In this document: positions 8,892 through 17,496 of the stretch, one piece after another
Position numbering within the stretch: position 1 is the stretch's first letter
How the letters are laid out: the number at the start of each line of letters is the position of its first letter
Assembly (NCBI GenBank): GCA_018221205.1
Contig: JAAOYF010000013.1
Coordinates: 1-36,956, forward strand
Direction: 5' to 3'
DNA length: 36,956 nucleotides
From: Candidatus Woesearchaeota archaeon
GTDB lineage: Archaea > Nanobdellota > Nanobdellia > Woesearchaeales > WJIZ01
Notes under the pieces: generated by a model
What the model saw: the letters and a program-made list of their open reading frames with translations, nothing else
What the model was told of the DNA's origin: nothing
Database searches by the model: none
Made by a program: the position numbers and the translations under genes

Positions 8892-10502
8892 TTACTTTTT
8901 CCAACGGGCTTTTCCCTTTCGAGTATCGATATGGATTCGATCTGTATATATGCCAATACCTCCAAAACCGAATTGTTCAGCCAGTGCAGCCATCTGTGGA
9001 ACAGTCATACCTTTGATGATAACATCTGCAGCTGTTCCTTTCATATGCTGGCTATCGTCAGCACCACCTGCTTTAGCATTATTTACTGCACATCGACAGC
9101 CTGAATTGACTTTTATCGATTTGCCTGTACGTTTGCGCAATGCCTCGAGTTTGAAAAGAAGTTCTGGCATCAACCGAAAGTTTCTACATCCATCTTTACA
9201 CATGAATTCTTTGACTGAAAAATGTTCAGTTAATTTGCTTGTCCTCGTCACATAAAAAGTAAATTTTCCATTTGGCTTGCCATTTGGCATCTCCATTACC
9301 TTCAGATAAGGTTCGCCATGCTCATCCATACTATTATCATGGTAGAATAAAGCGACAGGAAGAGATTGGATCCGATCCTGGCTGACTAAAGCAGATGCAA
9401 TGTTAAGATTCCGCTGCCATTCATTGAGATTATACGCCTCTGGATTCTGTATCTTACCCAAAGTAGCGCTATCAAAAAAACAGCTGAACTGGTGTGTTTT
9501 GAGAGCATTTTCAACAAGAGTATGAGGAAAATCTGGAGAGATCATCCTATATTTGATAACATCCCAGACCGCAATTTTCGCTTGGTCTGAACACGTCTCA
9601 GCTTCGCCCATAAATAATCGTGCTAGTACAACAGATGGATGCTCTTGAGCTATTGCTTGTCTGACTTCCTTAGCAGTTTTTGCTTTGATATAGTATTTTC
9701 CATGAGTGATTTGAGGCGGTTCTGCACCTGGTTTGAGTGGAATCCTCATTTCATTCCCTGGATAAATCGTATCGATGTCAACCTTGGGATTCAGTTTCTT
9801 TATTCCTTTGATGAATTGGTTATACGGTGGAGTGAATGCATGCAATTTGTTATAGATAATCCCTATGTTCTCCCCACCCTTCACAATATAAGAGAATTCG
9901 GTTTGTGAAGATTTTGCAGAAGGTGCTATTTTCTCAGCTACGGGCTGGGTCTGTTGAAGGGTCTCTTTTGACATGTCTACCCTATGCAACCAAAAAATGC
10001 TCAAGAGGATAGCACCGATGAGAAGAGTAGTCACGTTCGATATGCCTGCTTGCTGTTCATACTGCTTCCTGAAACTTTCCCGGGCCTGTTCAGGCAGATG
10101 TTGTTCGCAGACAACTGCAAATTGTGTGGCAATGATCTTCTCTCTTTTCACCAAGTCTCCATACACAACATTGGATCCTGCCCTTTGCTCCCTAAGGAGA
10201 TGATTCTTCGCTTTTACAAGAAGCTTACTGATTTTATGAAGAAATTCTATCTGCGCTGCGAATGCAAACTGCAATGTATTTTTCTGTCTTTTAAGACGAT
10301 GATGGACTCGAGAAAGCCTTTTGGTAAGCCCGACAATATCCCGTAAAGAATCATCGAGAAGAGCTATCTCTTCGCCAAGCTGTTTCCGCAATGTTTTCCT
10401 ATCGGTCCAGCTCGATCTCCTGTCCTTCAGCTGTTTTGCTGCATCATACCTCTCTTTTACTGAAGCATAAACACCCTTCAAGATACTTTGATAATCGAAC
10501 AT
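8892..10502 (-). CDS. Membrane-anchored LysM / SleB-like / peptidase M15 protein
   Basis: A 536-aa protein with an unusual chain of domains. Residues 1-150 are charged, helical and probably coiled coil. One membrane segment lies at about 157-173. A LysM carbohydrate-binding domain follows at 203-255, then a SleB-type cell-wall hydrolase-like region at about 290-400 (GEAE around 299-302, QFSCF at 339-343). A C-terminal peptidase M15A-like domain carries SQHMKGTAADV, with zinc ligands expected at His486, Asp493 and His524. In bacteria these domains cut peptidoglycan, which archaea do not make. GAAAGG precedes the ATG. A divergent pth2 gene shares the promoter spacer. Confidence 0.85.
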   Translation of the reverse strand: MFDYQSILKGVYASVKERYDAAKQLKDRRSSWTDRKTLRKQLGEEIALLDDSLRDIVGLTKRLSRVHHRLKRQKNTLQFAFAAQIEFLHKISKLLVKAKNHLLREQRAGSNVVYGDLVKREKIIATQFAVVCEQHLPEQARESFRKQYEQQAGISNVTTLLIGAILLSIFWLHRVDMSKETLQQTQPVAEKIAPSAKSSQTEFSYIVKGGENIGIIYNKLHAFTPPYNQFIKGIKKLNPKVDIDTIYPGNEMRIPLKPGAEPPQITHGKYYIKAKTAKEVRQAIAQEHPSVVLARLFMGEAETCSDQAKIAVWDVIKYRMISPDFPHTLVENALKTHQFSCFFDSATLGKIQNPEAYNLNEWQRNLNIASALVSQDRIQSLPVALFYHDNSMDEHGEPYLKVMEMPNGKPNGKFTFYVTRTSKLTEHFSVKEFMCKDGCRNFRLMPELLFKLEALRKRTGKSIKVNSGCRCAVNNAKAGGADDSQHMKGTAADVIIKGMTVPQMAALAEQFGFGGIGIYTDRIHIDTRKGKARWKK

Positions 10503-10544
10503 ATCCTTTCTTCAGATTAAATCTATATTAACCTTATGGTTAAT

Positions 10545-10554
10545 TTTTTATACT
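10545..10554. promoter_or_regulatory. TATA box between pth2 and the LysM protein gene
   Basis: TTTTTATACT lies 26 bases before the pth2 ATG at 10575, predicting a leaderless pth2 message. Read on the minus strand it is AGTATAAAAA and could also serve the LysM gene, giving a leader of about 23 bases with its GAAAGG site. A second minus-strand AT box near 10527 is an alternative for that gene. Confidence 0.55.
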
Positions 10555-10574
10555 GTGCAATAAAAAATCTCATT

Positions 10575-10913
10575 ATGAAACAAGTCATTCTCATAAGGCA
10601 GGATCTCAAGCTCCCGAAAGGCAAAATGTCTGTCCAGGCTGCGCATGCCTCGACTGAATCATTGCTGCGAAGCCATAAGGACGATGTCCAGAAATGGCGC
10701 AATCAAGGCATGAAGAAAGTCGTCCTGAAAGTGAAAGACGAGGAAGAGCTGATCAAGTACAAGCGCGAAGCAGAAGACATAGGATTGGTGACTGCCCTCA
10801 TCCAGGATGCAGGCAGGACTGTTTTAGACCCTGGCACGACAACATGTTTGGGAATCGGCCCTGACAAAGAGGAAAAGATTGATAAAATAACAGGAAAATT
10901 AAAGATGGTATGA
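10575..10913 (+). CDS. pth2: Peptidyl-tRNA hydrolase type 2
   Basis: A 112-aa enzyme that frees tRNA from peptidyl-tRNA dropped by ribosomes. The sequence starts MKQVILIRQDLKLPKGKMSVQ and continues AAHAS, the classic Pth2 N-terminal block. It also has a central QDAGRTVLDPGTTT block and LGIGP near the C-terminus. Archaea and eukaryotes use this type, unlike the bacterial Pth. The longer frame upstream was rejected because the TATA box places transcription at the ATG used here. Its stop overlaps the next small gene by ATGA. Confidence 0.96.
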   Translation: MKQVILIRQDLKLPKGKMSVQAAHASTESLLRSHKDDVQKWRNQGMKKVVLKVKDEEELIKYKREAEDIGLVTALIQDAGRTVLDPGTTTCLGIGPDKEEKIDKITGKLKMV

Positions 10914-11117: not shown

Positions 11118-11283
11118 GGGCTCTTAGCTCAGCCTGGCTAGAGCACTTGGCTCTTAACCAAGGGGTCGGGGGTTCGAAGAGATTTTTGCGAAAAATCTCG
11201 TAAAAAGCGGGCGACTTACGCACTACGTGCTCAGTCCCCTTGACGACAGATGATCGCAGATCCCGAAAGTCCCTCAGGGCCCA
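11118..11283 (+). tRNA. tRNA-Lys (anticodon CUU) with a T-loop intron
   Basis: The acceptor stem GGGCTCT (11118-11124) pairs with AGGGCCC (11276-11282), followed by discriminator A. The D arm is GCTC/GAGC. The anticodon stem CTTGG/CCAAG encloses loop CTCTTAA with anticodon CTT at 11153-11155. The T stem GGGGG (11168-11172) pairs with CCCTC (11271-11275). Between them the T-loop is broken by a 91-base insertion. Removing 11179-11269 gives the standard seven-base loop TTCGAAT and a 75-nt tRNA. CCA is not encoded. Confidence 0.93.
11179..11269 (+). other. Intron in the T-loop of tRNA-Lys, bulge-helix-bulge type
   Basis: TTCG (11173-11176) can pair with CGAA (11264-11267) to form a four-base central helix. 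The three-base bulges are AAG (11177-11179) on the 5' side and AGT (11268-11270) on the 3' side. Cutting after the second base of each bulge, the rule for archaeal splicing endonuclease, yields a perfect T-loop. The inner helix is weak (GATTT with AGATC). The intron opens with a hairpin, GAGATTTTT-GCG-AAAAATCTC. Part of it resembles a repeat-like cassette upstream of the superoxide dismutase gene. Confidence 0.85.
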
Positions 11284-11289
11284 TTTTTT
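11284..11289 (+). terminator. Oligo-T terminator after tRNA-Lys
   Basis: Six T residues directly follow the discriminator base, as expected for archaeal factor-independent termination at T-runs. Confidence 0.6.
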
Positions 11290-13320: not shown

Positions 13321-13369
13321 CTTTATTGCACTGCAACATAACGTTAAGAGAAGAGATAATCCAAGTAAA

Positions 13370-13379
13370 CTTTTTAAAC
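13370..13379 (+). promoter_or_regulatory. TATA box of the lysine operon
   Basis: CTTTTTAAAC is centred 26 bases before the dapB ATG at 13401, giving a leaderless message for dapB-dapA-lysA. Confidence 0.65.
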
Positions 13380-13400
13380 CCGCTTAAAATGCAGATCCTT

Positions 13401-14156
13401 ATGAATATCGCAATAGTAGGTTATGGTGGTATGGGTAAGATAATCGCCCAAGAGGCCAGAAAGAAAGGCATGATAATAGTATCGATAATCGATCCCAAAG
13501 TAGAAGGAGCGACCCATAAGATCGTATCATCAGAGTCATTGAAAGGTGTCGATGTCGCTATCGACTTCACCAGTCCAGGTGTGGCATTAGAGAACATCAA
13601 GAAATATGTCGCCTACAAGACGGATGTGGTCATGGGAACAACCGGTTGGTATGACCATATGGATGAAGTCAAAGAGATGGTGAAAGACTCCGGCATAAAG
13701 TTCCTCTGGGCAAGCAATTTCTCTATCGGAGTGAATCTCTATTTCAAGATCATCGACTTTGCTTCAAAGCTCATGGACAGTGCAGAAGAGTATGATATCT
13801 GGGGCAACGAGGTACATCATAAGAACAAGAAAGACTCCCCATCAGGAACTGCAAAAAGCATATCAAAGATAATCCTCAAGAATATCGAAAGGAAAAACAA
13901 GGTTGCCTATGAGATGCTCAACAGGAAAATTGACCCAGATGAGTTCCACTTTTCCTCAACTCGTGGAGGAGAGGTGAATTTCGAGCATACCATCGGATTT
14001 GACAGTCCGGCAGATACCATCACGATAAGACATAATGCAAGAAACAGAAATGGTTATGCTTCTGGATCTATCCATGCAGCAGAATGGCTCAATAAGAAAG
14101 AGCCTGGCTATTATGAATTAGATGATTTCATGAAAGAATTGGGTGAGAAAAGATGA
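13401..14156 (+). CDS. dapB: 4-hydroxy-tetrahydrodipicolinate reductase
   Basis: A 251-aa enzyme that reduces the DapA product with NAD(P)H, the second step of the diaminopimelate branch. It has the nucleotide-binding GYGGMGK (7-13), MGTTGW (78-83) and the catalytic block EVHHKNKKDSPSGTA (137-151), where the family consensus has DAPSGTA. The ATG was chosen because the TATA box places transcription there and GYGGMG then sits at the usual N-terminal position. It overlaps dapA by ATGA and opens the lysine operon. Confidence 0.94.
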   Translation: MNIAIVGYGGMGKIIAQEARKKGMIIVSIIDPKVEGATHKIVSSESLKGVDVAIDFTSPGVALENIKKYVAYKTDVVMGTTGWYDHMDEVKEMVKDSGIKFLWASNFSIGVNLYFKIIDFASKLMDSAEEYDIWGNEVHHKNKKDSPSGTAKSISKIILKNIERKNKVAYEMLNRKIDPDEFHFSSTRGGEVNFEHTIGFDSPADTITIRHNARNRNGYASGSIHAAEWLNKKEPGYYELDDFMKELGEKR

Positions 14157-15031
14157 ACTGGCAAGGTGTATATACGGCAATAGTGACTCCGTTTAAGGAC
14201 GGAGAAATTGATTGGGATGCATTGAAGAAACTCGTAGAATTCCAGCTGGAGAATAATGTAACAGGGATTGTGCCTTGTGGAACAACAGGAGAATCCCCTT
14301 GCTTATCCGATGAAGAAGCATTCAAGCTCATTGAAAACGTAGTCAAATGGACTGACGGAAAATGTAAAGTCATCGCCGGTTCAGGAACGAATTCAACCGC
14401 AAAGACCATCGCCAAAAGCAAGAAAGTAGAAAGCTTAGGTGTAGATGGACTATTGGTCGTCAATCCTTATTACAACAAACCGACGCAGGAAGGATTATAT
14501 CAGCATTTCAAAGCTGTCGCAGATTCAGTGAAGATTCCGATTGTCCTCTACAACATCAAAGGCCGGACAGGAGTGAATGTCGAAACCTTAACATTGATGA
14601 GGCTCATAAAAGAATGTCCAAACATCAGAATAGTCAAGGAAGCATCTGGAAATTTGGACCAGATGAAAGAGGTCATCAAGCAATCTCCAGATGACTTTAC
14701 TGTCCTTTCAGGAGACGACGGTATAACATTGGATCTGATAAAAGCTGGAGGAGACGGTGTTGTTTCAGTCGCCTCAAACATCATTCCCGATAAGATGGTT
14801 GCATTAGTGAACGCAGCATTAAAAAAAGATTTTGATGAAGCAGAGAAGATGAACACAGAACTGAAAGATTTCTTCGAGAAAGAATTCATCGAGACCAATC
14901 CACTCCCTATCAAAGCAGCATTGGCCATGAAAGGCATGATTGAAGAGGAATATAGGCTGCCTATGTGCAGGATGTCCTCTGCGAACAGAGAGAGATGGCA
15001 AGCAACATTAAAGAATATGAAGATACTATGA
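14153..15031 (+). CDS. dapA: 4-hydroxy-tetrahydrodipicolinate synthase
   Basis: A 292-aa TIM-barrel aldolase that condenses pyruvate with aspartate semialdehyde. Active-site residues are where expected: Thr44-Thr45 in GTTGE, Tyr133 and Arg138 in YNIKGRTG, and Schiff-base Lys162 in IVKEASG. The length equals the family norm. The start overlaps the dapB stop and the stop overlaps the lysA start, each by ATGA, so the three proteins are made in a coupled way. Confidence 0.95.
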   Translation: MNWQGVYTAIVTPFKDGEIDWDALKKLVEFQLENNVTGIVPCGTTGESPCLSDEEAFKLIENVVKWTDGKCKVIAGSGTNSTAKTIAKSKKVESLGVDGLLVVNPYYNKPTQEGLYQHFKAVADSVKIPIVLYNIKGRTGVNVETLTLMRLIKECPNIRIVKEASGNLDQMKEVIKQSPDDFTVLSGDDGITLDLIKAGGDGVVSVASNIIPDKMVALVNAALKKDFDEAEKMNTELKDFFEKEFIETNPLPIKAALAMKGMIEEEYRLPMCRMSSANRERWQATLKNMKIL

Positions 15032-16266
15032 AACTTCCTTTCACTAAAGAACAAGTAGAGAAGATAAGAGAGAGATTCCCGACTCCCTTCCACATCTACG
15101 ATGAGAAAAGAATCAGAGAGAATGTAAGAAAGTTCAAGAAAGCATTCGGCAAATTAGAAGGCTTCAAGGAATTCTTTGCAGTCAAGGCATTGCCCAATCC
15201 ATACATCCTAAAGATATTGAAAGAGGAAGGCTTCGGCACTGATTGCTCTTCCTTGCCTGAACTCATCCTATCAGAGAAAGTCGGCATAACAGGAGAAGAG
15301 ATAATGTTCAGCTCTAATGACACTCCAAAAGAGGCATTCAAGAAAGCAAAAGAGCTGGGAGCGATCATCAATGTAGACGACATTTCTCATATTGAATTTC
15401 TTGAGAAAGCAGCTGGCCTGCCGGATCTCATATGCTTCAGATACAACCCAGGACCAGCAAGAAAAGGCTCAACTATCATCGGCGATCCGAAAGAGGCAAA
15501 GTACGGCTTCACCAAAGAGCAATTGCTGGAAGGATATAGGATCTGCAAAGAAAAAGGTGTGAAAAGGTTCGGCCTGCATACTATGGTCATCTCAAATGAA
15601 CTCAATGAAGACTATTTCATCGAGACAGCAAAGATGCTTTTCGAACTCGCTATAGAAATAAAAGAAAAACTGGACATTCAGCTAGAATTTGTCAATCTAG
15701 GTGGGGGCATAGGCATTCCCTACAGACCAGATGAAAGACCAGTAGATTATGAAAAGATTGCAGATGGTGTACAGAAGCAGTATGATGAATTGATAAAAAA
15801 GAACAACCTGCATCTAAAGATCTATCTGGAGTGCGGCCGTGTCATAACAGGTCCTTATGGCTATCTCATAACAACAGTCCTTCATCTTAAGCATACCTAC
15901 AAAGAATACGTCGGTGTAGATGCTTCCATGGCAAATCTGATGCGGCCTGCGATGTACGGTGCACATCATCCTATCACTGTCCTAGGAAAAGAAGACAAAG
16001 CAAATGATCATACCTATGATGTCACTGGATCATTATGCGAAAACAATGATAAATTCGCGATTGACAGGAAGCTGCCAGAGATCAATGAAGGAGATATCTT
16101 AGCGATCCACAACACCGGCGCGCATGGCCATAGTATGGGCTTCAATTATAACGCCAGTCTAAGAAGCGCAGAACTCCTCTTAAAAGAAAACAAAGATGTC
16201 ATCCAGATCAGGCGTGCAGAGACAGTGGAAGATTATTTCTCCACTTTAGATTTCTCAAACCTATAA
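15028..16266 (+). CDS. lysA: Diaminopimelate decarboxylase
   Basis: A 412-aa PLP enzyme that makes lysine from meso-diaminopimelate. The N-terminal barrel carries AVKA with the PLP Lys53, the LGGGIGIPY phosphate-binding loop and an ECGR motif. The C-terminal domain has the SLCENNDKFA block (family: CESGD) with the catalytic Cys, and GHSMGFNYN. A longer frame starting in dapA was rejected; the ATG at 15028 overlaps the dapA stop. An ornithine decarboxylase-type relative is possible but the neighbours argue for lysine. Confidence 0.93.
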   Translation: MKLPFTKEQVEKIRERFPTPFHIYDEKRIRENVRKFKKAFGKLEGFKEFFAVKALPNPYILKILKEEGFGTDCSSLPELILSEKVGITGEEIMFSSNDTPKEAFKKAKELGAIINVDDISHIEFLEKAAGLPDLICFRYNPGPARKGSTIIGDPKEAKYGFTKEQLLEGYRICKEKGVKRFGLHTMVISNELNEDYFIETAKMLFELAIEIKEKLDIQLEFVNLGGGIGIPYRPDERPVDYEKIADGVQKQYDELIKKNNLHLKIYLECGRVITGPYGYLITTVLHLKHTYKEYVGVDASMANLMRPAMYGAHHPITVLGKEDKANDHTYDVTGSLCENNDKFAIDRKLPEINEGDILAIHNTGAHGHSMGFNYNASLRSAELLLKENKDVIQIRRAETVEDYFSTLDFSNL

Positions 16267-16267
16267 A

Positions 16268-16276
16268 TTTTTAAAT
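16268..16276 (+). promoter_or_regulatory. TATA box of dapL
   Basis: TTTTTAAAT directly follows the lysA stop and predicts a start near 16298. The leader then includes GAGGGA at 16304-16309. dapL may therefore be expressed both from the operon and from its own promoter. Confidence 0.5.
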
Positions 16277-16314
16277 CAGCAATTATTCTTCCATATTAAA
16301 AATCGAGGGAAAAA

Positions 16315-17496
16315 ATGAGGATTGAAGCGTCAAAAAGAGTGCAGTCAATAGGCAGCTATGCATTTGCAGATGTCGACAATGAAGTTGCCAAATTGAAAAG
16401 ACATGGAATTTCTCCGATAGATTTCGGCGTCGGTGATCCTAAAGAGCCCACTCCAGGTATAATCCGAAATTATACTAAGAGGGCTATTGACAAAAAAAGA
16501 GAATCCGGCTATCCTTCATACATCGGCTCTGAGGATTTCAGGCAGACCGTATCAGAATGGAACAAGAAAAGATTCAATATCGACCTTGATCCAAAGACAG
16601 AGATATCCTCGACCATAGGAAGCAAAGAAGGCATCTTCAATTTCGCAGAAGGCTTCATCAACCCTGGAGATTATGCTATCATACCCACTCCTGGCTATCC
16701 GCCCTGGAGCAGAGGAACTTTATTCTCAGAGGGAAAATCATACTTCGTTCCATTGACAAAAGAAAATGAATTCCTGCCCGATCTCGATAAGATTCCAAAA
16801 GACATCATAAAGAAAGCAAAGATACTCTGGATAAACTATCCAAATAATCCGACATCAGCCATAGCATCAAAGGATTTCTTGAAAAAAGCAGTTGATTTCG
16901 GCCATGATAACAATATCATCATCGCCTCTGATGAAGCATATTCAGAATTTTATTTTGAGGAAGAATACCGGCCTCACTCAATCCTGGAGATCTCGAAACA
17001 AGGCACTGTCGCTTTCAACTCCTTATCAAAAAGAAGCTTCATGACAACCTATCGGGTAGGATGGCTCGCCGGAGATAAGGAAATCATCGATATCTTCAAG
17101 AAAGTGAAGACCAATGTCGATTCAGGAACATCCACATTCATCCAGGATGCTGCCATCGCAGCTTATAATGATGAATCTCATGTGAAACATATGCGGGAAG
17201 AATACAAGAAAAAACGCGATTATATGTGCCAGGCTTTGAAACAGGCTGGATTAGAAGATTGCACTCCGAAGGCAACTATGTACATCTGGCAGAAAGTTCC
17301 AGAAAAGCTCTCATCGATTGAGTTCGCAAAAAAACTATTGGATCCGAAGATTGCCTGCGTCGTCACGCCAGGAGAATGGATATCAGAAGAAGTGGATGGG
17401 ATGAACCCTGGAAAAGGCTATGTCCGATTTGCGCTAGTACCCACAATCCATGAATGCAAGGTGGCTGCAGAAAAAATAGGGAAACTTTCGTTCTAA
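16315..17496 (+). CDS. dapL: LL-diaminopimelate aminotransferase (class I/II)
   Basis: A 393-aa PLP aminotransferase of fold type I. It has NYPNNPT (174-180), DEAYSEFYF (206-214) and the PLP lysine in NSLSKRSFMTTYRVGW (Lys239). Placement right after dapB-dapA-lysA strongly suggests it converts tetrahydrodipicolinate to LL-diaminopimelate, avoiding succinylated or acetylated intermediates. Class I aminotransferases share these motifs, so the substrate is assigned by context. GAGGGA lies five bases before the ATG. Confidence 0.85.
   Translation: MRIEASKRVQSIGSYAFADVDNEVAKLKRHGISPIDFGVGDPKEPTPGIIRNYTKRAIDKKRESGYPSYIGSEDFRQTVSEWNKKRFNIDLDPKTEISSTIGSKEGIFNFAEGFINPGDYAIIPTPGYPPWSRGTLFSEGKSYFVPLTKENEFLPDLDKIPKDIIKKAKILWINYPNNPTSAIASKDFLKKAVDFGHDNNIIIASDEAYSEFYFEEEYRPHSILEISKQGTVAFNSLSKRSFMTTYRVGWLAGDKEIIDIFKKVKTNVDSGTSTFIQDAAIAAYNDESHVKHMREEYKKKRDYMCQALKQAGLEDCTPKATMYIWQKVPEKLSSIEFAKKLLDPKIACVVTPGEWISEEVDGMNPGKGYVRFALVPTIHECKVAAEKIGKLSF

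Follow-up and report, generated by a model that had tools for sequence, protein, structure and literature searches.

In the genome of a Candidatus Woesearchaeota archaeon (assembly GCA_018221205.1, contig JAAOYF010000013.1), positions 11118-11283 read as a tRNA-Lys(CUU) gene whose cloverleaf is complete only when 91 nt, 11179-11269, are removed from between T-loop positions 59 and 60. Such a locus raises the questions of whether the gene still works, which enzymes could free its transcript of the insertion, and where the insertion came from. All coordinates without a contig label refer to the window, by which we mean the whole analysed stretch of 36,956 nucleotides (contig C45 of a 1.28 Mb assembly). 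In our reading, this is probably a working single-copy tRNA-Lys(CUU) gene with a 59/60 BHB intron that stems from a family of non-autonomous mobile elements.

An interrupted T-loop in tRNA-Lys(CUU)

On the spliced 75-mer, ARAGORN calls tRNA-Lys(ctt) with every stem paired and the T-loop TTCGAAT; on the unspliced gene it makes no call, even when an anticodon-loop intron is permitted, and the Rfam tRNA model assigns the unspliced gene 25.7 bits, below the cut-off of 29 bits. The spliced cloverleaf scores 59.3 in our own scoring function, which is similar to the scores of other tRNAs in this genome, and this value is reached by 0 of 300 shuffles of 300 nt of downstream sequence. The coordinates and the T-loop position given in a preliminary description of this DNA, made from its letters alone, were exact. 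That description had also proposed that the exon TTCG and the intron CGAA form the 4-bp central helix of a BHB motif with 3-nt bulges AAG and AGT. When the precursor is folded without constraints, its MFE structure shows the TTCG/CGAA helix and the 3' bulge AGT, and to this extent the proposal holds; the 5' side is slightly relaxed rather than strictly canonical, with A11180/C11263 unpaired or, in an alternative pairing, with G11179 bound to C11263 and a 2-nt AA bulge left over. The inner-helix offset (1,1) is the most frequent offset in the class. The features of 11118-11289, all on the + strand, are the following.

11118-11178, +: 5' exon of tRNA-Lys(CUU), to T-loop position 59 (ends TTCGAA); cloverleaf after splicing
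11152-11154, +: anticodon CUU, in the loop CTCTTAA at 11151-11157; ARAGORN on the spliced sequence
11173-11176, +: BHB central helix, exon strand TTCG; sequence and MFE fold
11177-11179, +: 5' bulge AA/G with predicted cut 11178/11179; fold, cut placed by the archaeal BHB rule
11179-11269, +: intron, 91 nt, position 59/60; ARAGORN and shuffle test
11179-11199, +: P1, local 9-bp hairpin GAGATTTTT-GCG-AAAAATCTC, competitor of the BHB inner helix; fold and co-variation across introns
11200-11208, +: J, A-rich linker GTAAAAAGC; conserved together with P1 in 9 of the order's genomes
11209-11239, +: P2 hairpin GGGCGACTT...CAGTCCCC; fold, similar hairpins in sister introns
11255-11262, +: BHB inner helix, 3' strand CGCAGATC, partner of the intron 5' strand; MFE fold and class-wide co-variation
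11264-11267, +: BHB central helix, intron strand CGAA; sequence and fold
11268-11270, +: 3' bulge AG/T with predicted cut 11269/11270; fold
11270-11283, +: 3' exon, with T-loop position 60, T-stem 3' strand, acceptor 3' strand and discriminator A
11284-11289, +: T-run directly 3' of the tRNA, possible terminator; sequence only

Another intact Lys(CUU) gene, which the preliminary description had named as a sign that this copy is dead, was searched for in the 94.8%-complete assembly and none was found; the best other match is tRNA-Lys(UUU) (L005), which has a 37/38 intron of its own. The gene in the window is, as judged from sequence, an intact single-copy tRNA-Lys(CUU) with a T-loop BHB intron, and its splicing is predicted. 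Introns appear to be frequent in this genome: 18 of its 25 tRNA genes above threshold are longer than the mature length, which is best explained by introns, mainly at 37/38 and some elsewhere, such as those in a D-loop (L024) and in an anticodon stem (L019). An Rfam scan of the intron and its sister elements returned only tRNA and rRNA above threshold, with no group I or other family.

Just upstream of the tRNA lies a gene for the peptidyl-tRNA hydrolase PTH2 (10536-10913), and at 8892-10502, on the - strand, a 536-aa ORF whose domains, peptidase M15 and cell-wall hydrolase, are unexpected for an archaeon; this ORF was possibly acquired horizontally. About 2 kb downstream, 13326-17496 holds genes of lysine biosynthesis (DapB, DapA, a LysA-type decarboxylase and an aminotransferase), with glutamine synthetase between them and the tRNA. 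That lysine-biosynthesis genes lie near a tRNA-Lys is probably a coincidence.

T-loop introns across the order

When Lys genes alone were compared among 60 relatives, five further genomes showed insertions at 59/60. A search of 353 genomes of the order for the T-loop junction, by the exact pattern GGTTCGAA...CGAAAGTCC, revealed long T-loop insertions with the same junction in 69 genomes and short ones in 116, with about 10 matches per search for the reversed-pattern control; both counts are lower bounds, because the junction letters are fixed in the pattern. After splicing, 111 of 142 distinct candidates read as tRNAs of many isotypes, the anticodon being uncertain in genes with a second intron. 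In a draw across the phylum, the long type occurred in 44 genomes of the order as against 1 of 113 genomes from the other orders of the class, and the named records that carry the core of the window intron are titled Woesearchaeota or Nanoarchaeota. The preliminary description had called T-loop introns unusual, and they are indeed rare in general, but within this order they are common, and 59/60 is already a listed position of archaeal tRNA introns (PMC4090602).

A third type of T-loop intron, of about 65-77 nt, was also seen, with motifs GGTT..GTAAAACC..GGTT..AAAACC conserved across families; it occurs in f63 genomes and in G018, G013, G019 and G128 (e.g. L181, L189, L219, L193, L194).

Two helices compete for the intron 5' strand

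In the long introns, the 5' strand (X) pairs with the 3' end of the intron (X'') to form the BHB inner helix, and it also pairs with the strand just downstream (X') to form a local hairpin. Among 82 non-redundant introns, a set thinned of similar introns to reduce shared ancestry and analysed with statistics that contain no model of kinship, both X:X' and X:X'' fit better within than between introns (0/1000 permutations each), compared with 858/1000 permutations for a middle control region of the same introns. Both pairings are found in 49 of the 82, against an expectation of 11%. The two helices overlap on X by a mean of 0.85 of the shorter helix (56 introns), and because of this overlap they are mutually exclusive. 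For the window intron, two folds are predicted within 2 kcal/mol of each other (-59.9 vs -57.9). The co-varying partners of the intron 5' strand make a folding checkpoint possible, although what co-varies here is pairing, which does not by itself prove a switch. A pseudoknot between the P1 loop and linker J was considered as well and set aside as weakly supported (self 4.51 vs 4.14, 4/1000 permutations).

The intron core recurs inside and outside tRNA genes

The first 31 nt of the window intron are identical to the start of a 37/38 intron of tRNA-Thr(UGU) in G004, a genome of the same family and another genus, and this anticodon-loop intron is 91 nt long. The 26-nt core of the window intron, which we call type B, is present in 9 of 353 genomes, one copy each, mostly in T-loop introns, with one copy in an anticodon loop and one in a non-tRNA intergenic hairpin of about 200 nt, whose flanks hold an inverted and not a direct repeat. 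A sister core, type A (GGTTACGCKC-N8-CGCAA), is found in 62 of the 353 genomes, in as many as 14 copies, the reversed control for this pattern giving one match; G045, G243, G314 and G322 are rich in the element. Its sites are T-loop introns, anticodon introns, places beside duplicated tRNA 5' ends, and intergenic regions. A rough classifier assigned 20 of 73 distinct type-A copies to T-loop introns and 13 to other places in or beside tRNAs, and of the 40 left over many are intergenic, while several can be seen to be T-loop introns that escaped it. Several copies are placed between a tRNA 5'-end fragment and a complete tRNA. Unrelated sites carry the same core sequence, as would be expected of a mobile element. 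The two types are linked only by their common architecture, P2 variants and co-occurrence; a joint alignment of type A and type B cores was discarded, the types being misaligned by MAFFT.

Where the T-loop reads TTCAAA, the intron ends in TGAA, which indicates that it is the pairing that is kept, and not a target duplication. The idea that the intron CGAA is a duplicated target suits TTCGAA loops and is contradicted by these TTCAAA hosts. We also considered a viral origin and rejected it; the exact cores are absent from viral contigs.

The genome that holds the window has a second T-loop intron (G000:C34:14513-14908; L213, L268) with a type-A core, in a host gene best read as tRNA-Gly(UCC) with an additional anticodon-loop intron. 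At G000:C64:24246-24431 (L269, L025), a type-A core has the fragment GGGCCTGTAGC on one side and, on the other, a complete tRNA whose first letters are those of the fragment; this tRNA seemingly has more than one intron. In G045, G243, G057 and G125 (L255, L270-L284, L307-L308) the type-A core is part of conserved intergenic repeats of 200-300 nt with additional hairpins and a 3' portion that resembles TTTTGATCAAACTTNGGTAAA; these repeats are common to several families and have no Rfam match. In two families (L311, L322) the repeat is next to an ORF whose beginning is Pelota-like, as judged from the look of the sequence. One type-B core (L326, G243:C2) is located in a gene that resembles a tRNA but shows no evident TTC in its T-loop, and this gene may be a pseudogene or some other arrangement.

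Direct repeats at element ends

Direct repeats of at least 12 nt occur at the element 5' end in 9 of 46 type-A copies, compared with 0 of 138 control anchors, where repeats were counted at a score of at least 12 and an end no more than 6 nt from the element 5' end, in copies with enough flank (n = 46). These copies are located at tRNA 5' ends, at ORF starts and in one promoter-like region, and their repeats have the form of target-site duplications; none was seen for the type-B core of the window. The window's own genome has an intergenic copy (L267, contig C31), upstream of an ORF that resembles replication factor C, where 56 nt are enclosed between two perfect copies of the 17-bp ACTTAAATAATATCTTC. 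Compared with the second T-loop intron of this genome (L268), it matches that intron's core at 51 of 57 positions (89%), and its 5' end coincides with the intron 5' end, one nucleotide past the splice site. Replication slippage or recombination could also be a source of direct repeats. Among the ORFs beside 15 intergenic copies, inspected by eye, no transposase, reverse transcriptase, IS200/IS605 or tnpB was recognised.

The splicing enzymes

EndA enzymes of broad specificity have a CSL/ASL loop of 11-18 residues. The EndA of this genome is encoded by a single gene (one PF01974 locus) of 184-186 aa (184 from ATG), and its segment before LSLVEA, which bears on that loop, is by eye about as long as in M. 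jannaschii. With one N-terminal domain (PF02778) and one C-terminal domain (PF01974), its layout is the alpha-type arrangement. EndA was found in 58 of 60 relatives, mostly as a single gene, and the best solved relative of the present enzyme is the catalytic subunit of N. equitans, followed by M. kandleri and M. jannaschii. A C-terminal Trp aligns with the Trp of N. equitans and A. pernix and is present in all 17 readable members of the order (17/17), so that the enzyme does not have the two-arginine bulge-binding site of the alpha4 type. Alpha-type (alpha4) EndA is described as narrow in specificity, with two bulge-site arginines, and the broad types as having Arg and Trp at the bulge-binding site (PMC6379350; PMC12397907). 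The preliminary description had suggested identifying the endonuclease type, and expected a T-loop intron to imply one of broad specificity. The single alpha-type gene, an arrangement termed narrow (PMC6379350), lends this expectation no support, yet the enzyme has the Trp of the broad types, so that its specificity may be of either kind; because these two features are combined, the order does not fit cleanly into the scheme of enzyme types. A gene for RtcB is present in the genome.

Proposed explanation and alternatives

We propose that the precursor folds so that the exon TTCG would pair with the intron CGAA, and the intron 5' strand with the intron 3' end. EndA would then cut after A11178 and G11269 and RtcB would join the exons, as in known archaeal tRNA splicing. 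The intron would be a member of a family of short structured elements that extends across the order and is made up of the P1 hairpin, the linker J and the P2 hairpin. This family is most likely a non-autonomous mobile element that lacks an enzyme of its own and is tolerated in tRNAs as EndA and RtcB remove it, presumably with no obvious gain for the host tRNA. The T-loop may be a favourable site because TTCGAA is near-invariant and self-complementary, so that half of the BHB is already made. Movement could run from element to intron or from intron to element. For the type-B core of the window, mobility is supported indirectly, as the single copy outside a tRNA has no direct repeats. More tentatively, as a reading to which we give somewhat less than an even chance, the family could be a kind of 'introner' in archaea. 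Such a non-autonomous element, some 55-110 nt long, would make BHB tRNA introns across Woesearchaeota-type archaea, exploit the palindromic TTCGAA and have two mutually exclusive folds, one its own hairpin and the other for splicing.

The same introns might instead be ordinary BHB introns, vertically inherited and immobile, whose core is kept by selection for a conserved functional RNA fold (e.g. protein-binding or chaperone). The identity of 26-31 nt across families and the co-variation of both X:X' and X:X'' are consistent with this account, which we nonetheless regard as unlikely, since the core is found at differing positions, in different tRNAs and outside tRNAs, its presence is patchy, as with type B in 9 of 353 genomes, and direct repeats flank copies outside intron sites. 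Somewhat less probable still is a regulatory intron, a role that the preliminary description had raised, in which P1 and the BHB inner helix would switch the splicing of tRNA-Lys(CUU) through folding, transcription speed or a ligand. The helices do overlap and co-vary, the predicted folds of the window intron are close in energy and lysine-biosynthesis genes lie nearby, but introns of many isotypes show the same architecture, which leaves nothing specific to lysine, no ligand motif or Rfam match was found, and the energies are predictions. The core occurs also outside tRNAs, and a mobile-element origin is therefore favoured over a regulatory role.

We consider it very improbable that the gene is dead, that is, that the insertion destroyed tRNA-Lys(CUU) and that tRNA-Lys(UUU) reads the AAG codons. 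Such a loss could be survivable because a tRNA-Lys(UUU) gene exists, and the 5' side of the BHB departs from the strict canon, but the exon stems and conserved bases are all intact, dozens of genomes and isotypes, among them isotypes that are essential and single-copy, have T-loop introns with matching 3' ends, and the pairing at the junction co-varies.

Relation to known systems and implications

Archaeal BHB tRNA introns at non-canonical positions were reportedly described by Sugahara in 2008 from Thermoproteales, and the likeness of introns in different tRNAs has led to proposals of intron transposition that, to our knowledge, name no mechanism. Like the Thermoproteales case, the present family consists of similar introns in unrelated tRNAs and at different positions, a likeness of pattern; here, in contrast, the core is found outside tRNA genes as well, and some copies lie between long direct repeats. 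With the archaeal non-canonical BHB introns (PMC4090602) our introns share the position, the central helix with its bulges and the expected removal by EndA and ligation by RtcB; they differ in that they come from a DPANN order whose EndA is encoded by one alpha-type gene, and in that the long introns have a common structured core with two competing helices. The Caldiarchaeum model of tRNA disruption (PMC3293823) likewise combines intron gain with a 5' tRNA fragment that precedes an entire tRNA, but its element is 1.8 kb long and has a recombinase gene, whereas ours is non-coding and roughly 55-110 nt in length. In eukaryotes, transposons known as introners give rise to spliceosomal introns, and they would resemble this family in that a mobile element becomes an intron in many genes; those introns are spliceosomal and these are of the BHB/EndA kind, a likeness of working and not of membership. 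MITEs and the palindromic elements of IS200/IS605 are also short, non-coding, hairpin-rich and dispersed; for the present family, in contrast, no terminal inverted repeats have been established and no related transposase was found nearby, and at 12-33 nt its direct repeats are longer than is typical of MITEs.

Earlier publications already cover BHB introns and position 59/60, the transposition of introns in Thermoproteales, and a model in which a mobile element disrupts tRNA genes (PMC4090602, PMC4033280, PMC3293823). In a literature search that covered few subscription journals, nothing turned up on tRNA introns of Woesearchaeota or on archaeal tRNA introns formed by a dispersed non-coding element. 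Hence, the novelty of the intron core as a dispersed element is provisional.

Both ARAGORN and the Rfam threshold miss the tRNA-Lys(CUU) of the window, and because standard tRNA searches overlook genes with T-loop introns, counts of tRNAs in these archaea are probably too low. The abundance of T-loop introns in an order with a single alpha-type EndA gene calls into question the accepted view that enzyme type and intron position go together. A core that is found outside tRNAs, with some copies between direct repeats, makes a mobile-element route to archaeal tRNA introns directly testable; one of these copies resides in the same genome as the tRNA-Lys(CUU) intron itself.
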